Translations under genes and position numbers: made by a program
The notes under the pieces: generated by a model
The model's input: the letters and a program-made list of their open reading frames with translations, nothing else
Database searches by the model: none
What the model was told of the DNA's origin: nothing
Shown: positions 55,694 to 64,000 of the stretch, piece after piece
Layout of the letters: every line of letters starts with the position of its first letter
Position numbering within the stretch: the stretch's first letter is position 1
From: Agreia sp. COWG
Lineage (GTDB): Bacteria; Actinomycetota; Actinomycetes; Actinomycetales; Microbacteriaceae
NCBI RefSeq assembly: GCF_904528075.1
Contig: NZ_LR882035.1
Coordinates: 2,108,001 to 2,172,000, forward strand
Length of the DNA stretch: 64,000 bases
Reading direction: 5' to 3'

Positions 55694-56844
<1,151 letters not shown>

Positions 56845-56871
<27 letters not shown>

Positions 56872-58695
56872 ATCAGCGGGCCGTGTGATGGGCAGACGGC
56901 ACACGAAGTCGCGGCACAGATATGCGGTGTCCACGCCGTTCTGAGCGACCCGGCCCTCGAGCAGCTCGAAGCCCGCGTCGACCCAGTCACGCGTCTGCGT
57001 CTCGGCCACGACGACCGTGAGCGCGTGCACGTTCTTCCTGGCAGGGTCCTTCCTGGCAGCGTCGACGAGCGCACGCCCGACATCGGCGGAACCGGCGGCG
57101 GCATCCGACGTCACGATCACGAGTTGTTGGGTCGGCGCGACGAGCCGCGACAACACCTCGAGTGAGGCACCGTAGGCGATGGGCCGTGCCAGCGCCTCGG
57201 CGGCCACTCCCCCGATGGCCGCAGCGGCCGCGGCGCGATATCGGGCAGCGCCGGTGAGTTCGTACAGCGTCAGCGCCGCGTCGCTGACGGCGCTGAGGCC
57301 CGATGGATAAGCGCCCTCGGCGGTGTCGACACCCGCGGTGATGCCCTGGGCGACCAACACCGGATCGCCTCCGCTCGGAACCGAGAAATCTGCGGCAAGC
57401 ACGGCATCGATGAGGCTCCGGGCCGCGATCGCGTACCGCACTCGACCTGTCGCAGCCGAGAGGGCCAACAGCCCGCCCGCGAAAGCCCCGTAGTCCTCCA
57501 GCGTCGCCGCGGCATCCGATCGCTCGTGACCGATGGAGGCACGGACAAGGACGCCCGAGTCGTCGACGTGCGTGTCGAGCAGGAAGTCCGCAGCCCGCAC
57601 AGCTGCCTCGATCCAGTCCGGGTGATCGAGGGCGGAGCCGGCGCGACACAGCGCAGCGATCGCAAAGCCGTTCCACCCGGTGAGAACCTTGGCGTCGACG
57701 GCGGGCGGCGTCTCTGCCGCCCGGCCCGCCGCATCCAGCGCGTAATAGCCGCCCTCGCTTCGGGAGCCCTTCACGGTGCTCTCCGAGTCTTGGGCGGAGC
57801 CGAAGCCTCCGGCGGGCTGTCGCAGAACGGTGAGGAGGAAGGAGGCCACGCCCTCGGCGACATCGCGCATACCTGTTCGGGCATACAGATCGAGCAGAAG
57901 CGCGTTGTCGTAGAGCATTCGCTCGTAGTGAGGGTCGCTCCAGTCGCGGTTCACGGAGTAGCGGAAGAAGCCGCCCTCGACGGAATCCCGCAGGTGCGAG
58001 GCGGCCATGGCCACGAGGGTGCGTTCGGCCAGCGGCGAATCCCGACGTGCGAGGAAGGACAGCGTGGGGGCGACGGGAAACTTCGGGGCTCCGCCGAAGC
58101 CTCCGTAGCTCGTGTCCTCGTAGGCCTCGAGCCCGGCTACCGCCGCCCCGAGAAGCTGCTGCGCATCTGCCGGAATCGCGCCAGCCGGCACCCCCGCCGA
58201 CCCAGCCGCAAGCGCGTCGGTGATGGCCGTGGCCGTCTCGTCGACCTGATCGCGCCGGGACCGCCAGGCGTCATCGACGGCATCGAGTAGCTGCGAGAAC
58301 GACGGATGCCCCTGGACCGGAGTCGGGGGCGAGTACGTTCCGGCGTAGAACGCCTTGCCCTGAGGTGTGACGAAGACGTTCAGCGGCCAGCCGAGGTTCT
58401 GGGTGAAGGCGCCGGCGGCGGCGAGGTAGACGGAATCGACTTCGGGGTGCTCTTCCCGGTCGACCTTGATCGCGACGAAACGGTCGTTCAGCGTCGCCGC
58501 CAGAACGGGGTCGGAGAACGATTCGCGCGCCATCACGTGACACCAGTGGCACGTCGAGTAGCCGATCGACACGAGAACGGGAACGTCTCGCCGAGCCGCC
58601 TCCGCGAACGCCGCCTCGCCCCACGGATACCAGTCGACGGGGTTGTCGGCGTGGGATCGCAGATACGGGCTGATGGCGTCGCGGAGGCGATTCAT
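56845..58695 (-). CDS. YyaL/DUF255 thioredoxin-domain protein
   Basis: 616 residues. The N-terminal thioredoxin-like domain (about 1-130) holds [15 protein letters not shown] (Cys49, Cys52). A long alpha/alpha-toroid region (about 180-560) resembles N-acylglucosamine-epimerase/glycosidase folds. The family (spermatogenesis-associated protein 20/YyaL) has no firm biochemical role. It is the last gene of the five-gene operon, 8 nt after the aldo/keto reductase stop. Confidence 0.9.
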
Positions 58696-58703
58696 GATCG
58701 TGA

Positions 58704-59543
58704 CTAGTTGACCTCGTCGGGGTGGCCGCCGACGCGACCGTCCTTCTCGAGGCCCGTGATCGACGCCTGCTCGGCCTCGGTGAGGGCGAAGTCGAAGATC
58801 TCGAAATTTTCGACGATGCGGTCACGGCTGTTCGACTTCGGGAAGATGATGTTGCCCTGCTGGATGTGCCAGCGCAGAATCACCTGAGCCAGCGACTTGC
58901 CGTGCGCGTCCGCGATGGCCTGAACGCTCTCATCTTTCAGCAGCGCTCCGTGGGCGAGCGGGCTCCAGGCCTCGGTGGCAATGCCGTGCTGGTGGCCGTA
59001 GGCCGTGATCTCGCGCTGCTGGAATTCGGGGTGCAGCTCGATCTGATTGACGGCGGGCACGACCTGAGTCTCCTCGAGCAGGCGGGTCAGGTGCGGCACC
59101 GTGAAGTTCGAGACGCCGATCGAGCGCGCCCTGCCGGATTCGGCGATCTTCTCCAGAGCCTTCCAGGCGTCGACGTAGTTGTCGTTCGCCGGGGCCGGCC
59201 AGTGGATCAGGTACAGATCGACGTAGTCGAGCTGCAGCCGGCCGAGGCTCTTCTCGAACGCCTCGAGGCCCGACTCGTAGCCCTGGTCGGAGTTCCACAG
59301 CTTGGTAGTGATGAACAGCTCGTCACGGTCGATGCCGCTGGTCTTGATGGCGTGGCCCACGCCCTCTTCGTTGCCGTAGATCTTGGCGGTGTCGATGTGT
59401 CGGTAGCCCACCTCGAACGCCTCGCTGACGACGCGGGAGGTCTTGTCGGGATCGACCTTGAAGACGCCGAAGCCGAGCTGCGGAATTGTGTTGCCGTCGT
59501 TGAGGGTGATCGTGGGAACGGTGTTCGGACTGGTATTCGTCAT
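58704..59543 (-). CDS. Aldo/keto reductase
   Basis: 279 residues of the AKR5-like group (2,5-diketo-D-gluconate reductase type). Catalytic tetrad residues are visible in [18 protein letters not shown] (Asp, Tyr), [10 protein letters not shown] (Lys) and LYLIHWPAP (His). NADPH contacts are in [12 protein letters not shown]. It reduces aldehydes or ketones with NADPH. Its ATG overlaps the stop of the MIO-family gene (ATGA), so it should act with that operon. Confidence 0.92.
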
Positions 59544-61012
59544 TCGTCAATCGTGTCACGCGACGCGCATTTCGCCACGGCCTTGACGGCTGCCCCCAGC
59601 AGCGTGCGAGCAGTCTCCCTGCCTGCCTCCAGCGTCTCGGCGAGCTCGGCCGCGAGCTGCCGTGTGCCGCGTCCGAGTACCGGAACACTACCGCCGTCGC
59701 CGTCAGGCCGACCGCCGTGGGCGCGCAGCAGCTCCGCCGAGTGCAGCGCCTCGATTGCGACGATGTCGCGCACCAGTCCGAGCTGACGCTGCAGCTGGCG
59801 CAGGGCGAGCGGCGCGAAGGAGGCGTGGTCTTCGACCTCGGAGAGCGTCGTGCCCGATGTCGACACCGGGTTGGCCAGATGCCGGATCTCGGCCAGAGTG
59901 GCGGATGCCGCGTACCAGCTGAGACCGGGGACGGCGTTCGCGCCGGCCCGCCGAAGCGGGGTGGCCAGGCCGCTCAGCACGGCGATGCGCCGCTCCGAGA
60001 GCCCCGCGAGGTGCGCGAGCGCCACGCGCAGGGTCTCGAACGCGAGTGCCAGGCCCAAAGGCTCGAAGTTGCCATTCGAGAGCAACACGCCGTCGCTGTC
60101 GTCTCGATCTCCGGGGCCGCCCAGAACGACCAGTGGATTGTCGCCGGGCGCGTTCAACTCGTCCTCCACGACGTCGACCGCACGCGACGCGGCGTCTCGC
60201 ACCGCTCCGTGCACCTGGGGCACCGTGCGAAACGAGAGCGCATCCTGCACAGACGAGGCGCGGCCCGGGTCCTCGAGAAAGCTCCCCTCGAGACGAGACC
60301 GGATGGCGGCCGCCACCGCGCGCTGCCCGGGCGAGGCCCGCCGCGCGTGCACGCGAGGATCGAACGGCGCGAGCGAACCCCCGCCGCCCGCCGCGCCGAG
60401 CGCCTCGAGCGAAAGGGCTGCGACGAGATCGGCCTCGTCGAGAAGGGCATGCAGCTCGGTGAGGGCCAGCGCCCCGACACCGATCGAGTACGAGTTGGCG
60501 CTGATGGCGGCGAGCGCCTCACCCGCGGCGAAGGGCAACGTCTCGCGTACGTGTGCTGCGAGCTCCGCGAGCAGGGCGAGGTCGGACGCGCCGACGGAGC
60601 CCGTGCCGTAGACCTCGGGAAGCGGCCGTCCGTCGAGGAGCCGAGCGTAGGCATCCGGCAGCTCTGGCCGCACGCCCGACCCGCCCAGGCTGAAGCCCAC
60701 GATCCTGGCGAACACGAGCGCCCGCACCTCGTTCTCGCTCAGTGCGTCTCCGATCGAGCCGCGATGATTATCGATGATGCGGTTCTGGAACACCGAGATC
60801 TCGTCCGGCTCGACGGCCGTGTCGCGGCCCGCGCCCAGGTGCGTGTTCACCCCGTACGTCGACACACCTGCGACAAGAGTCGCCTCGACCACTCGACGGG
60901 CGTCGGCGAGCACATCCCGCACCGGCTGTGCCAGCTGAACCGTTGCACCGCCGGCCACCGAGACCACATCGCCGACCGTGATGCGACGACCATCGAGCAG
61001 CACGGTCGACAT
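59540..61012 (-). CDS. HAL/PAL-family (MIO) lyase-like protein with altered ASD motif
   Basis: 490 residues. The family fold is clear: YGVNTHLGAG (Tyr53), NRIIDNHRGSIG (His83), GTGSVGASDLALLAEL, AISANSYSIG (Asn173), SFRTVPQVHGA (Arg262), LSNGNFEPLGLAL (Phe316) and EVEDHASFAPL (Glu394). In active enzymes Ala-Ser-Gly cyclises to the MIO cofactor. Here residues 142-144 are Ala-Ser-Asp, as if the Gly codon were lost, and the usual Tyr before SxR is Leu259. It may be a non-MIO enzyme, a variant lyase or a non-catalytic partner. The start is coupled to the LLM gene by TGATG. Confidence 0.83.
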   Translation of the reverse strand: MSTVLLDGRRITVGDVVSVAGGATVQLAQPVRDVLADARRVVEATLVAGVSTYGVNTHLGAGRDTAVEPDEISVFQNRIIDNHRGSIGDALSENEVRALVFARIVGFSLGGSGVRPELPDAYARLLDGRPLPEVYGTGSVGASDLALLAELAAHVRETLPFAAGEALAAISANSYSIGVGALALTELHALLDEADLVAALSLEALGAAGGGGSLAPFDPRVHARRASPGQRAVAAAIRSRLEGSFLEDPGRASSVQDALSFRTVPQVHGAVRDAASRAVDVVEDELNAPGDNPLVVLGGPGDRDDSDGVLLSNGNFEPLGLALAFETLRVALAHLAGLSERRIAVLSGLATPLRRAGANAVPGLSWYAASATLAEIRHLANPVSTSGTTLSEVEDHASFAPLALRQLQRQLGLVRDIVAIEALHSAELLRAHGGRPDGDGGSVPVLGRGTRQLAAELAETLEAGRETARTLLGAAVKAVAKCASRDTIDE

Positions 61013-62313
61013 CAGAAGTCCCGCAGGTTGCCGCGCAGTCCGCCGCCGCCGAATTCCCGCCGAATCAGGCCGCGGCGGCGTAACACGGGCACGAGGGGGT
61101 CGAGCGTGCGGTGCACGTTCGCCGGATGCACCGGGCCGGCGAACAGGAATCCGTCGCCGCCGCTCGCCTCGCCCAGCGCTTCGAGGTGGTCGACGATCTC
61201 GTCGGCCGTGCCGATCACGGCGAGACCGTCGCGGTTGGCGCGCACCTGCAGAATCTCGCGCAGCGTCGAGCCGGGAGGCGCCGAGCGCACGAAGTTGTCG
61301 AGCGTGCCCTGGTTGCTGTTGGTCGTCAGCTCGGGCAGTGGCGCGTCGAGGTCGAACGCCTTGAAGTCGACGCCGGAGAGATACGAGATCGATTGCAGCG
61401 CCTCGTCGATGGCGGCCTGATTCAGCTCGGAGCGACGGGCTTTGACGCTGGCCGTCTCCTCGGCGTTGGCCGTCACGATGGGCGTGACGGCGAACAGCAC
61501 CTTCACGTGTTCGGGGTCGCGGCCGGCCGCGAGCGCGATCTGCCGGATGCTGTCGCGGAACTGCCTGTTGCGCTCGGCCGTCGACGAGAGCGCGATGATC
61601 ACATCGGAGTTCTGCCCCGCGAAGTCGCGGCCGCGACCGGATGCGCCGGCCTGCACCATGACCGGTTCTTCGGGCAGCGGGGCCGTGTTGATCGGACCGC
61701 GCACCCTGAAGAAGCGACCGTCGTGGTTGATGGGTGCCACCTTCGTGAAGTCGGCGAATATGCCGCGCTCGGCATCTTCGACGATGGCGTCGGGCTGCCA
61801 GCTGCGCCAGAGCTTGCGAATCACGCTGACCCACTCGTCGGCCCTGTCGTAGCGAAGGTCGTGCTCGATCTGCTTGTCGAGGCCGTAGTTCTGGGCGGCC
61901 AGGTCGCTGCCGCTGGTCACGACGTTCCAGCCGAGACGTCCGTCGGCGAAGTGCTGCAGCGTGGCCAGCAGCCGGGCCGCCGTGAACGGCTCATAGAACG
62001 AGGCGCTGAGGGTCGGCACGATACCGAGGTTCTGGGTGGCACTCAGCAGGTACGGCACCAGCGGCACAGGGTCGTGTTTCGGCGCGAACCGCGCGTTGGC
62101 GAGGTTGACCTGGCTCGTTCCGCCGTAGGTGTCGGGCACCGTCACGCCGTCTTCGATGATCAACAGGTCCAGGCCGCTGCGCTCGAACTGGCGCGCGGCG
62201 TCTTGGTAGACATCCGGCTTCTTCCAGTCGTAGCCGATGCCGTAGCTGGGGTCGCCCCACCCCTGAACCCCGAAGCCAGCGCCCAGAAACCAACCGAAAT
62301 GAAGCAGCGACAT
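61012..62313 (-). CDS. LLM-class flavin-dependent monooxygenase (NtaA/SnaA/DszA family)
   Basis: 433 residues. Family motifs: GWFLGAGFGVQGWGDPSYG near the N-terminus, IPLVPYL-like VPLVPYLLSATQNLGIVPTLS, GRLGWNVVTSG, and PVMVQAGASGRGRDFAGQNSDV (FMN-phosphate region). Such enzymes use FMNH2 and O2 and often cleave C-S or C-N bonds (DszA, dimethylsulfide monooxygenase, NTA monooxygenase). No flavin reductase is adjacent, so reduced flavin must come from elsewhere. Second gene of the operon. Confidence 0.92.
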   Translation of the reverse strand: MSLLHFGWFLGAGFGVQGWGDPSYGIGYDWKKPDVYQDAARQFERSGLDLLIIEDGVTVPDTYGGTSQVNLANARFAPKHDPVPLVPYLLSATQNLGIVPTLSASFYEPFTAARLLATLQHFADGRLGWNVVTSGSDLAAQNYGLDKQIEHDLRYDRADEWVSVIRKLWRSWQPDAIVEDAERGIFADFTKVAPINHDGRFFRVRGPINTAPLPEEPVMVQAGASGRGRDFAGQNSDVIIALSSTAERNRQFRDSIRQIALAAGRDPEHVKVLFAVTPIVTANAEETASVKARRSELNQAAIDEALQSISYLSGVDFKAFDLDAPLPELTTNSNQGTLDNFVRSAPPGSTLREILQVRANRDGLAVIGTADEIVDHLEALGEASGGDGFLFAGPVHPANVHRTLDPLVPVLRRRGLIRREFGGGGLRGNLRDF

Positions 62314-62340
62314 TACAGACCTAACCGTGTTGGGAGGGGC

Positions 62341-63384
62341 TCAGATGGAATAGGTGCCGACCCCGAGGTCGGTCAGCCACGCATCGTCGAAAGCCTTGGT
62401 CAGGTAGTTGGCCCCGGTGTCGGGCGCGATCGCCACAACGACATCTCCGGGGGCTGCGGTTGCCGCGACCCGCAACGCGACGGCCACCGCCAGCGCAGAC
62501 GAGGGCCCGAGCAGCAGAGCCTCCGATGCGGCGAGCGCGTGCACCGTGTCGTAGATCTCCTGGTCGCTCACGACCACGTACTCGTCGACGACCTCGTGGT
62601 GATAGGTCTGCGGCCAGTTCGCCTCGGCCCACCGGTTGCCGGCGCCCTCCACGTTGATGGGGCCCGCCGCATTGCCGCTATAGGTCGAGCCGGTGGGATC
62701 CGCTCCGATGACCCGGATGCGATCGGCCGACACGTCTTTCAGATAGCGGCCGGTTCCGCTGATCGTTCCCCCCGTGCCGACGGAGGCGACGAGGTGTGTC
62801 ACCCCGTGCGCGGTCTGCCGCCAGATCTCTGGTCCCGTGCCCTGGTAGTGGGCGCCGGGATTGCTGTCGTTCTCGTACTGAGACGGTCGCCACGCATTCG
62901 GCAGCTCGGCCGCGATGCGATCCGCGATCGTCCTGGCGTTGTCGGGGCTCTCCGGCGGAGCCTCCCAGTCGGCTTCGACGAGCCGGGCGCCGTAGGCCTT
63001 CAACACGGCTCGCTTCTCGTCGCTGATGTAGGCGCTGTGGATGATCACGACCGGGTGCCCGGTCAGCCGGCCGACGAGCGCCAGTCCGATGCCGGTGTTT
63101 CCTGAGCTCGACTCCACGATCGTCGCGCCGGGCTTCAGTGCACCGCTGGCCTCTGCGGTACGAATCATGTGCAGGGCGATCCTGTCTTTCGCGCTTCCCC
63201 CGGCATTGCGATTCTCGAGCTTCACGAGCACCCGTGCGGGCAGGCCAGCGGCCAGCACGTTCAACTCGATGAGCGGGGTGTTGCCGATGAGCGCGATGAC
63301 CGAGGCGGTGATGTCCTCGACGAACTCGCAGGGCCCCTCGCCCGACGCCGGAGCGGCCAGGGAAACGCTGTCGAGGTTCGTCAT
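62341..63384 (-). CDS. PLP-dependent cysteine synthase/cystathionine beta-synthase-like protein
   Basis: 347 residues, fold type II. PLP-binding Lys66 in NRNAGGSAKDRIA, substrate loop ESSSGNTGIGLAL, SVGTGGTISGTGRYLK phosphate cup, and NPGAHYQGTGPEIW, closer to CBS-type than to CysK. No C-terminal CBS domains. It catalyses beta-replacement or beta-elimination on serine-type amino acids. It is the first gene of the operon and the LLM gene starts 27 nt on. TATTCT 6 nt before its ATG is the probable operon promoter. Confidence 0.9.
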   Translation of the reverse strand: MTNLDSVSLAAPASGEGPCEFVEDITASVIALIGNTPLIELNVLAAGLPARVLVKLENRNAGGSAKDRIALHMIRTAEASGALKPGATIVESSSGNTGIGLALVGRLTGHPVVIIHSAYISDEKRAVLKAYGARLVEADWEAPPESPDNARTIADRIAAELPNAWRPSQYENDSNPGAHYQGTGPEIWRQTAHGVTHLVASVGTGGTISGTGRYLKDVSADRIRVIGADPTGSTYSGNAAGPINVEGAGNRWAEANWPQTYHHEVVDEYVVVSDQEIYDTVHALAASEALLLGPSSALAVAVALRVAATAAPGDVVVAIAPDTGANYLTKAFDDAWLTDLGVGTYSI

Positions 63385-63390
63385 GAGTTG

Positions 63391-63396
63391 AGAATA
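63391..63396 (-). promoter_or_regulatory. -10-like hexamer heading the five-gene operon
   Basis: TATTCT ends 6 nt before the ATG at 63384. It is the only convincing promoter for the run of genes down to 56845. Confidence 0.45.
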
Positions 63397-63509
63397 TGGC
63401 GGCCCATCGCTCGCCGGAGCGGTGTGTCAGAGTGTTACGACCCGAGGGTGGTTAGATCGCAGGGGATGCGGGAACGCCTCCGTCAGCACGAGCACGAGGG
63501 AGCATGGAC

Positions 63510-64000
63510 ATGGGCAAGGGAACAATCGTTTTCGCGGGCGGCGGAGTCGCCGGCATCGCATGGGAGCTGGGTGTGGTGCATGGTCTCCTCGACGCCGATC
63601 CGGTTCTCGTCGAGAAGCTGTTCGCATCCGGCACCCGCTTTGTCGGCACCTCGGCCGGGTCTGCGGTCGCCGCCCAGCTCGCCTCCTCGGCAGGCATCGC
63701 CGACTCGTATGCGGCGCAGCTCGAGGAGGAGACGGCCGAGATCGGCGCCGACGTCGACATGGCCGAGCTTCAACAGCGGTTCGTCGACGCGATCGAGGGC
63801 GCGAGATCGCCCACGGAGGCTCTGCAGGGCATCGGCCGCCTCGCACTCGAGACGCCGTCTGTCGACGAGCAGGTGCGCCTCGACGTGATCGGCGCCCGTC
63901 TCGCCGAGCCCGGGTGGCCAGAGCGCGATCTGCGCATCACCGCCGTCGACGTGACCACCGGCGAGTTCGCCGTCTTCGACCGCACGAGCGGCGTCGACCT
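63510..64000 (+). CDS. Patatin-like phospholipase (N-terminal part; runs off window)
   Basis: The first 163 residues are present. FAGGGVAGIAWELGVVHGL gives the oxyanion-hole glycines, and GTSAGSAVAAQL the nucleophile Ser48 in GxSxG. The catalytic Asp of the Ser-Asp dyad is outside the window. I choose ATG 63510 because GAGGGAG lies 7 nt upstream; ATG 63504 would add two residues. Probably a lipid acyl hydrolase. It is divergent from the five-gene operon. Confidence 0.87.
   Translation, partial: MGKGTIVFAGGGVAGIAWELGVVHGLLDADPVLVEKLFASGTRFVGTSAGSAVAAQLASSAGIADSYAAQLEEETAEIGADVDMAELQQRFVDAIEGARSPTEALQGIGRLALETPSVDEQVRLDVIGARLAEPGWPERDLRITAVDVTTGEFAVFDRTSGVD

Follow-up and report, generated by a model that had tools for sequence, protein, structure and literature searches.

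The window analysed here is a stretch of 64,000 nucleotides from Agreia sp. COWG, whose genome (G000; 3.44 Mb, 99.98% complete) has its nearest named relatives in Agreia, Microbacteriaceae. It carries five open reading frames (ORFs) that lie head-to-tail on the minus strand, encoding in order a cystathionine beta-synthase (CBS)-like pyridoxal phosphate (PLP) enzyme, a luciferase-like monooxygenase (LLM), a lyase of the histidine ammonia-lyase (HAL) fold that lacks the motif for the 4-methylideneimidazole-5-one (MIO) cofactor and is called MIO-less in the following, an aldo/keto reductase (AKR), and a YyaL protein (Table 1). An earlier note on this DNA had described the gene set, its orientation and all four junctions, which are borne out by the ORFs and by recomputation of the junctions (27 nt, TGATG, ATGA and 8 nt). 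Judged by comparison of genomes, however, it is the trio of the first three genes and not the set of five that is the functional unit. This three-gene cassette is real, is conserved in soil and plant bacteria, and stands under one conserved promoter element; it is apparently undescribed as far as the literature was searched, as no work on this gene set was found among open-licence PMC papers.

Table 1. Features of the trio, its Agreia-only neighbours and the upstream elements, in positions of the window
Feature	Position	Strand	Basis
CBS-like PLP beta-replacement enzyme (PALP), trio gene 1	62341-63384	-	PF00291; TIGR01137 352 bits, below cut-off
LLM flavin-dependent monooxygenase, NtaA/SnaA/DszA type, trio gene 2	61012-62313	-	PF00296 and TIGR03860, over cut-off
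MIO-less HAL-fold lyase, trio gene 3	59540-61012	-	PF00221 309 bits; short loop; top structural match ergothionase 6s7j
AKR, DkgA-like, Agreia-only neighbour	58704-59543	-	PF00248
YyaL/DUF255 thioredoxin-fold protein, Agreia-only neighbour	56845-58695	-	PF03190
Lyase loop codons Gly141-Ala-Ser-Asp-Leu145, site of HAL Ala-Ser-Gly	60578-60592	-	alignment; codons from sequence
Leaderless-type -10 hexamer TATTCT, 6 nt ahead of the CBS-like ATG	63391-63396	-	TANNNT at 6-9 nt in 31/33 loci; 7/7 Agreia
GTAACACTCTGACAC, conserved upstream element, possible operator	63424-63438	-	GTAA[CT]A in 17/33 loci

Conservation and promoter of the trio

For comparison of the neighbourhoods, 36 loci with a trio-type lyase were fetched with their surroundings (12 including the window's own, plus 20, plus 4). 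The CBS-like, LLM and lyase genes are contiguous in 33 of them, across genera, and the remaining three (L079, L084, L086) are cut by contig ends inside the cassette. The gene order is CBS-LLM-lyase in 28 loci and LLM-lyase-CBS in five Arthrobacter-like ones (L043, L152-L155). With starts projected from the window's proteins, the genes of the trio overlap or lie no more than 51 nt apart, three loci excepted: L040 has a CBS-LLM gap of 408 nt and a CBS-like match that spans two frames, and LLM and lyase are separated by 144 nt in L080 and by 94 nt in L043. The lyase and the LLM orthologue are shared by 30 of 299 Microbacteriaceae genomes, and neither is found alone in any other, at cut-offs that we set (E <=1e-40 for the lyase, E <=1e-120 for the LLM), and this strict co-occurrence in the family sample means that the trio defines one concrete, assayable pathway. 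Among 297 genomes of the order, with cut-offs likewise of our own choice, the LLM is found in six, and these are the six with trio-type loops among the 30 lyase matches that were examined with their surroundings, 121 other lyase-positive genomes lying outside this motif check. Five genomes of the order with a MIO-less lyase (G405, G425, G432, G438, G553) gave no LLM, and in their loci (L156-L160) the lyase stands without LLM or CBS-like neighbours.

The AKR and YyaL genes are genus-level neighbours of the trio. In all seven Agreia loci the AKR gene adjoins the lyase gene, which it does in none of the remaining 26 complete loci, some of these having unlinked AKR genes elsewhere, and outside Agreia a relative of YyaL was seen in one case, about 7 kb from the lyase (L073). 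The earlier note had proposed a single five-gene route in which the AKR reduces an aldehyde, and had suggested the comparison of gene neighbourhoods across genomes. This comparison keeps the CBS-like, LLM and lyase genes together and leaves the route of five genes unsupported, as AKR and YyaL are not linked to the trio in genera other than Agreia; the five-gene pathway is thus rejected. Within the genus, the gap between AKR and YyaL is 8-28 nt in five of seven genomes and 967-968 nt, with an ORF on the opposite strand, in the other two. In these two loci (L033, which is Agreia bicolorata, and L035), the ORF in the stretch of about 970 bp is 306-315 aa long as a stop-to-stop frame.

The hexamer TATTCT, which had been taken for promoter-like, gains support from the other loci. 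In 31 of 33 loci the first trio gene has TANNNT, which we take to be the actinobacterial -10 element, 6, 7 or 9 nt ahead of a start codon (19, 10 and 2, respectively). This is so in both gene orders, at a background of 0.001 per position, in a test that was set up after inspection of 15 loci and allows one to three alternative starts per locus, such starts being needed in some of them (L040, L041, L044 and others). The distance is exactly 6 nt in all seven Agreia genomes. At the internal genes the same scan found TANNNT in 4/28 loci for the LLM, 0/33 for the lyase, 0/7 for the AKR and 2/7 for YyaL, the last two being exactly the Agreia genomes in which the insert precedes YyaL, and among the five genes of the window genome only the CBS-like one has it. 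As TANNNT is conserved at the first trio gene and rare at the internal genes, it appears well supported by these comparisons that one leaderless-type promoter serves the five-gene run. A scan of positions 56500-63600 for two-hexamer sigma-70 promoters found none (shuffle mean 0.4), and an Rfam scan of positions 56000-64000 gave zero matches. The five genes are probably cotranscribed in the window genome, as the earlier note had claimed from the junctions and the one hexamer, but the coupling of YyaL varies among Agreia genomes.

Farther upstream, a motif made up of GTAA[CT]A and, after it, a half that resembles CAAC or GACAC is found in 17 of 33 loci, with a background of 0.009 per 180 nt, which is the length searched round the start (150 nt upstream plus 30). 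The motif was chosen after inspecting 15 loci; it is present in four of 13 previously uninspected CBS-first loci (about 0.1 expected) and in none of the five LLM-first loci. It is possible that this putative element is an operator.

The three enzymes

The third trio gene had been labelled as encoding a MIO-family lyase-like protein, which is right for the HAL fold (PF00221) but not for the cofactor. Where HAL has GASGDL, the lyase has GASDL and is one residue short, and the MIO tripeptide (Ala/Cys-Ser-Gly) is absent; the loop comprises 14 residues, compared with 15 in HutH controls with a typical loop. HAL Tyr280 is replaced by Leu in the window lyase, and by L, I or V in all of the best 120 of 1757 homologues, of which 119 have the short loop (the window's own included; P0025 is a fragment). 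Because of the short loop and the exchange of Tyr280, the lyase is predicted to be unable to make MIO as known. Otherwise it shares with HutH the equivalents of Tyr53, His83, Asn195, Gln277, Arg283, Phe329 and Glu414, of which His83 and Glu414 are, as we assume, residues of the imidazole site. In 49 aligned homologues six of these seven other catalytic positions are invariant and His83 is at least 90% conserved. A decayed HutH is therefore rejected, given the short loop among the best homologues and the conservation of the other catalytic positions, and an ordinary HutH of a hut operon is likewise rejected, as the MIO tripeptide is missing and the window genome has no urocanase match. Database entries name the proteins of the clade 'histidine ammonia-lyase' or 'aromatic amino acid (ammonia-)lyase', yet MIO chemistry of the known kind is ruled out by their sequence.

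The top structural match of the lyase is ergothionase (6s7j) of Treponema denticola. This enzyme and its Burkholderia-type relatives, the main papers on which are cited in PMC13405746, are likewise MIO-less HAL-fold proteins with a loop that is one residue short, Leu in place of Tyr280, and the other catalytic residues kept. They differ from the trio lyase in sequence (about 24-26% identity), in the position on a separate tree branch, and in the genetic partner, which is a thiourocanate hydratase gene instead of the LLM and CBS-like genes. Also Lys383, which presumably binds the thioimidazole, is Lys in 6s7j and in three proteobacterial lyases (L216, L217 and L218, each within 7 kb of a relative of the hydratase found in L160), Asn or Gln in the lyases of L157, L158 and L160 (L159 is outside that alignment), and Tyr in the trio lyase. 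The trio lyase thus appears like ergothionase in its MIO loss, but one ergothionase signature is missing from it, and we do not count it as an ergothionase. It offers another system for asking how enzymes of the HAL fold work without the cofactor.

A tree was built from 66 selected sequences, the N-termini of some being guesses. In it 49 rows form a MIO-less clade (100/100) that holds both the trio clade (100/99) and a clade of the L157-L160 lyases (100/99), and the T. denticola ergothionase and the L168-type lyases stand outside this clade on long, less certain branches. L045, L047 and L050 are also short-looped and were wrongly placed in the tree group named 'MIO', so that the number of changes counted for this group has no bearing on MIO; short loops either arose more than once or are of greater age than the tree shows. 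Nor is the short loop with loss of Tyr280 universal, as L045 keeps Tyr and L047 has Phe. The loop was located in 78 of 80 loci, 41 short and 37 long, with some loci repeating one gene (L097 and L101 gave no match, and the second motif in L096 and L126 is spurious). Outside the trio clade, the PF00221 proteins of L045 (G010; GTGDL) and L047 (G053; GTADL) have no Ala-Ser-Gly. L050 (G005:C53:214759-216111) is an Agreia PF00221 protein with a loop shorter by three residues (GSVGYL), near a urocanase gene (G005:C53:213428-214051), and P0108, a distant relative of 647 aa, is a MIO-less lyase annotated with PF00221 and the rhodanese domain PF00581.

The LLM matches TIGR03860 with 370 bits (cut-off 279.7), and its best solved relatives are DszA, DmoA and YtnJ. 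The nitrilotriacetate (NTA) and ethylenediaminetetraacetate (EDTA) monooxygenases (3sdo, 5dqp) score lower than DszA and DmoA. For DszA, YxeK and CmoJ, C-S cleavage by a flavin peroxide is described in excerpts of PMC10863075. No flavin reductase was recognised among the five genes, and the genome was not searched for one. The CBS-like enzyme has its best NCBIfam match in TIGR01137 at 352 bits, below the cut-off of 510, and follows that profile only to position 319 of 457; it has a PALP domain only and no C-terminal CBS domains. It is 50% identical to a separate 457-aa CBS-like frame of the same genome and 39% to a 315-aa CysK-like frame, with CysE-like and cystathionine-enzyme-like neighbours, recognised by eye, beside those frames. 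As G000 has these separate CysK-like and CBS-like frames, the trio enzyme is unlikely to be the housekeeping cysteine synthase.

Possible functions of the trio

The earlier note had suggested organosulfur or amine salvage and had added that the MIO-like member fits no recognised pathway. The latter is agreed, one reason being that this member is MIO-less; organosulfur salvage by the trio is plausible and open to test, and a pathway of all five genes is unsupported. The reading that we prefer, tentatively and at a little under even chances, is that the trio allows the cell, in an oxygen-dependent way, to recover reduced sulfur from a betaine or thioether of the histidine type, ergothioneine being included as a special case. 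The MIO-less lyase would carry out a cofactor-free beta-elimination on a histidine-type substrate with a better leaving group than ammonia, which could be a sulfur group or the kind of quaternary amine that ergothionase releases; the LLM would cleave a C-S bond via a flavin peroxide and leave the sulfur at the level of sulfide, thiol or sulfenate; and the CBS-like PLP enzyme would join the released sulfur to activated serine. Substrate and order of the steps are what we infer, as is sulfur as the purpose, to which point the LLM relatives DszA, DmoA and YtnJ, the CBS-like partner, the missing match for a sulfite reductase in the window genome, and MetZ and rhodanese-like neighbours. MetZ lies close to the trio on the other strand in four of the five LLM-first (order-level) loci, and the same four have a small gene that is rhodanese-like by eye, its profile match being weak and to MoeB only. 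Amine salvage by the trio may also occur, since an ergothionase-like lyase would release trimethylamine.

NIR_SIR (PF01077) was sought in 12 genomes, no match being taken as no proof of a missing function, and there is no match in five (G000, G005, G006, G007, G023). Another five (G001-G004, G032) have a single match in frames of 890-930 aa, which is read as nitrite reductase, unverified. With no NIR_SIR match in the window genome, sulfide for CysK should come from elsewhere, and the cassette could explain the reduced-sulfur supply of a plant- or soil-associated actinobacterium of this kind.

Several points weigh against sulfur salvage from a histidine-type compound. LLMs of the NtaA type can also cleave C-N bonds. 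The trio genomes G035 and G041 have several NIR_SIR matches each, with strong pairs among them, so genomes with a sulfite reductase can carry the cassette too. Urocanase (PF01175), the family to which thiourocanate hydratase also belongs, has no match in G000, so the Hut route would be closed to a urocanate-type product in the window's strain; urocanase-based breakdown (hut or ert) is thus rejected for this genome. Urocanase was found in 25 of 37 genomes, which are 24 of the 36 trio genomes and the trio-less G006, G000 and 11 other trio genomes being without. The Tyr at the position of ergothionase Lys383 also counts against the reading, as do the GNAT and ABC transporter genes described below, which accompany many trios, though not those of Agreia. 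Relatives of the LLM on plasmids, tried as a clue to the substrate, have unrelated contexts in the five of 317 records inspected (38-44% identity), and the lyase has no match on plasmids at 1e-30.

With slightly more reserve still, a large and undescribed clade of MIO-less lyases, working with a dedicated LLM and a CBS-like synthase under one leaderless promoter, might stand for a new aerobic pathway by which bacteria without sulfite reductase obtain sulfur from a histidine-derived betaine or thioether, by cofactor-free elimination and possibly on a substrate other than ergothioneine.

A route without any imidazole is unlikely. In a salvage of S-substituted cysteines like that of the Cmo and Yxe systems, the LLM would cleave the S-conjugate, the HAL-fold lyase would split C-S bonds as 2SL does, and the thiol would be handled by the CBS-like enzyme, but the lyase keeps the presumed imidazole-site residues His83 and Glu414. 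YtnJ among the LLM relatives is in favour of this route, and so are the genes for a GNAT and for a polar amino-acid ABC transporter, which recur around the trio in genera other than Agreia. The GNAT gene lies on the opposite strand and points towards the trio in 19 of 36 trio loci; the ABC transporter is represented by its binding protein in 13 loci and its permease in 14, and in L083 and L087 its genes lie upstream of the trio on the same strand. Salvage of S-alkyl-cysteine and S-(2-succino)cysteine (2SC) by CmoJ, YxeK or 2SL resembles the trio in its TIGR03860-type or related flavin C-S monooxygenase or lyase, and its logic of acetyltransferase and transporter, with acetylation plus monooxygenase or lyase as described in excerpts of PMC9706529 and PMC10863075, is present near many trios. 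Yet according to the excerpt of PMC9706529, 2SL belongs to the class I lyase domain family (cd01334), whereas the trio lyase is a HAL-fold PF00221 protein. The window's trio has a CBS-like enzyme, and the 20 kb around it hold no member of the GNAT cluster. A deacetylase was not recognised among the neighbours of the trio, which were annotated in part, and no genome-wide search for one was made. A link of the trio to the ABC transporter was not found inside Agreia, where the transporter orthologue is unlinked or missing (G000 and G002 lack an orthologue of the substrate-binding protein, and the trio-less G006 has one), and the transporter is at most an optional trio partner.

Ergothioneine or S-methyl-ergothioneine as the actual substrate is also unlikely, and slightly more so. 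The lyase would form trimethylamine and (S-methyl-)thiourocanate, and oxidative desulfurization by the LLM would replace the hydratase/desulfurase route. This is suggested by the ergothionase as top structural match and by the place of the lyase in one MIO-less clade with the actinobacterial L157-L160 lyases (about 39% identity for L157-L159, 34% for L160), which are encoded beside relatives of thiourocanate hydratase, thiohydantoin desulfurase and ErtD. L157-L160 (in G425, G438, G553 and G405) are probable ergothioneine-utilisation loci by their gene content, with relatives of thiohydantoin desulfurase in all four and of thiourocanate hydratase in L157, L158 and L160: L158 has both the desulfurase and the hydratase clusters of L157, L159 shows the desulfurase cluster and not the hydratase by the gene caller used, and L160 has S-Me-THD domains over the Pfam cut-offs. 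For the ert families of NCBIfam, however, L157 and L160 stay below the cut-offs throughout: 695 bits for thiourocanate hydratase (cut-off 930), 352 for thiohydantoin desulfurase (440) and 401 for ErtD (600) in L157, and 672 bits for the hydratase relative in L160. Unlike the trio, these lyases have no LLM or CBS-like neighbour, and those aligned have Asn or Gln where the trio has Tyr. Because the Lys of the four ergothionase-type lyases is Tyr in the trio, ergothioneine itself appears doubtful as its substrate, and the lack of a urocanase match in G000 adds to the doubt. EgtD was found in one of 37 genomes (G041) and not in G000; 14 control genomes gave no match over the cut-off, and the match of G041 is the sole positive control. 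Endogenous turnover of ergothioneine is thus unlikely. A cell that uses ergothioneine would depend on its import, but a betaine transporter was not recognised in those trio loci that were examined.

Improbable is a biosynthetic role, in which the CBS-like enzyme would build a beta-substituted amino acid and the LLM and the lyase would modify it into a small specialised metabolite. Enzymes of the CBS/CysK type make many beta-substituted alanines, and the trio enzyme is an extra paralogue beside CysK and CBS, but among the frequent neighbour clusters no recurrent export, nonribosomal peptide synthetase or regulator gene was recognised with the trio, and an importer recurs instead. A salvage of nitrogen or carbon, in which the LLM, as an oxygenase of the NtaA type, would N-dealkylate a compound resembling an opine or an aminopolycarboxylate, is very improbable, since it leaves the CBS-like enzyme and the MetZ neighbour unexplained and the NTA and EDTA enzymes score below DszA and DmoA, although TIGR03860 includes these enzymes and the nearby binding protein has nopaline and deoxyfructosyl-amino-acid binders among its relatives.

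Further neighbours and related loci

The HrpA and ribonucleotide-reductase genes near the trio are probably a matter of shared synteny. Outside the trio loci, L168 (G825) combines a MIO-less lyase with urocanase, HutF, an M20 amidase and an OpuAC betaine-binding protein, which looks like catabolism of the histidine betaine hercynine, as judged from the gene content. In L167 (G773), the second of two lyases is MIO-less and lies near HutF-type genes, and the other has an ordinary ASG loop. On the Rhodococcus fascians plasmid pFiD188, an NtaA/DmoA-type monooxygenase with 39% identity to the LLM (L190, NZ_CP015236.1:83138-84442) is encoded just after the fas genes.

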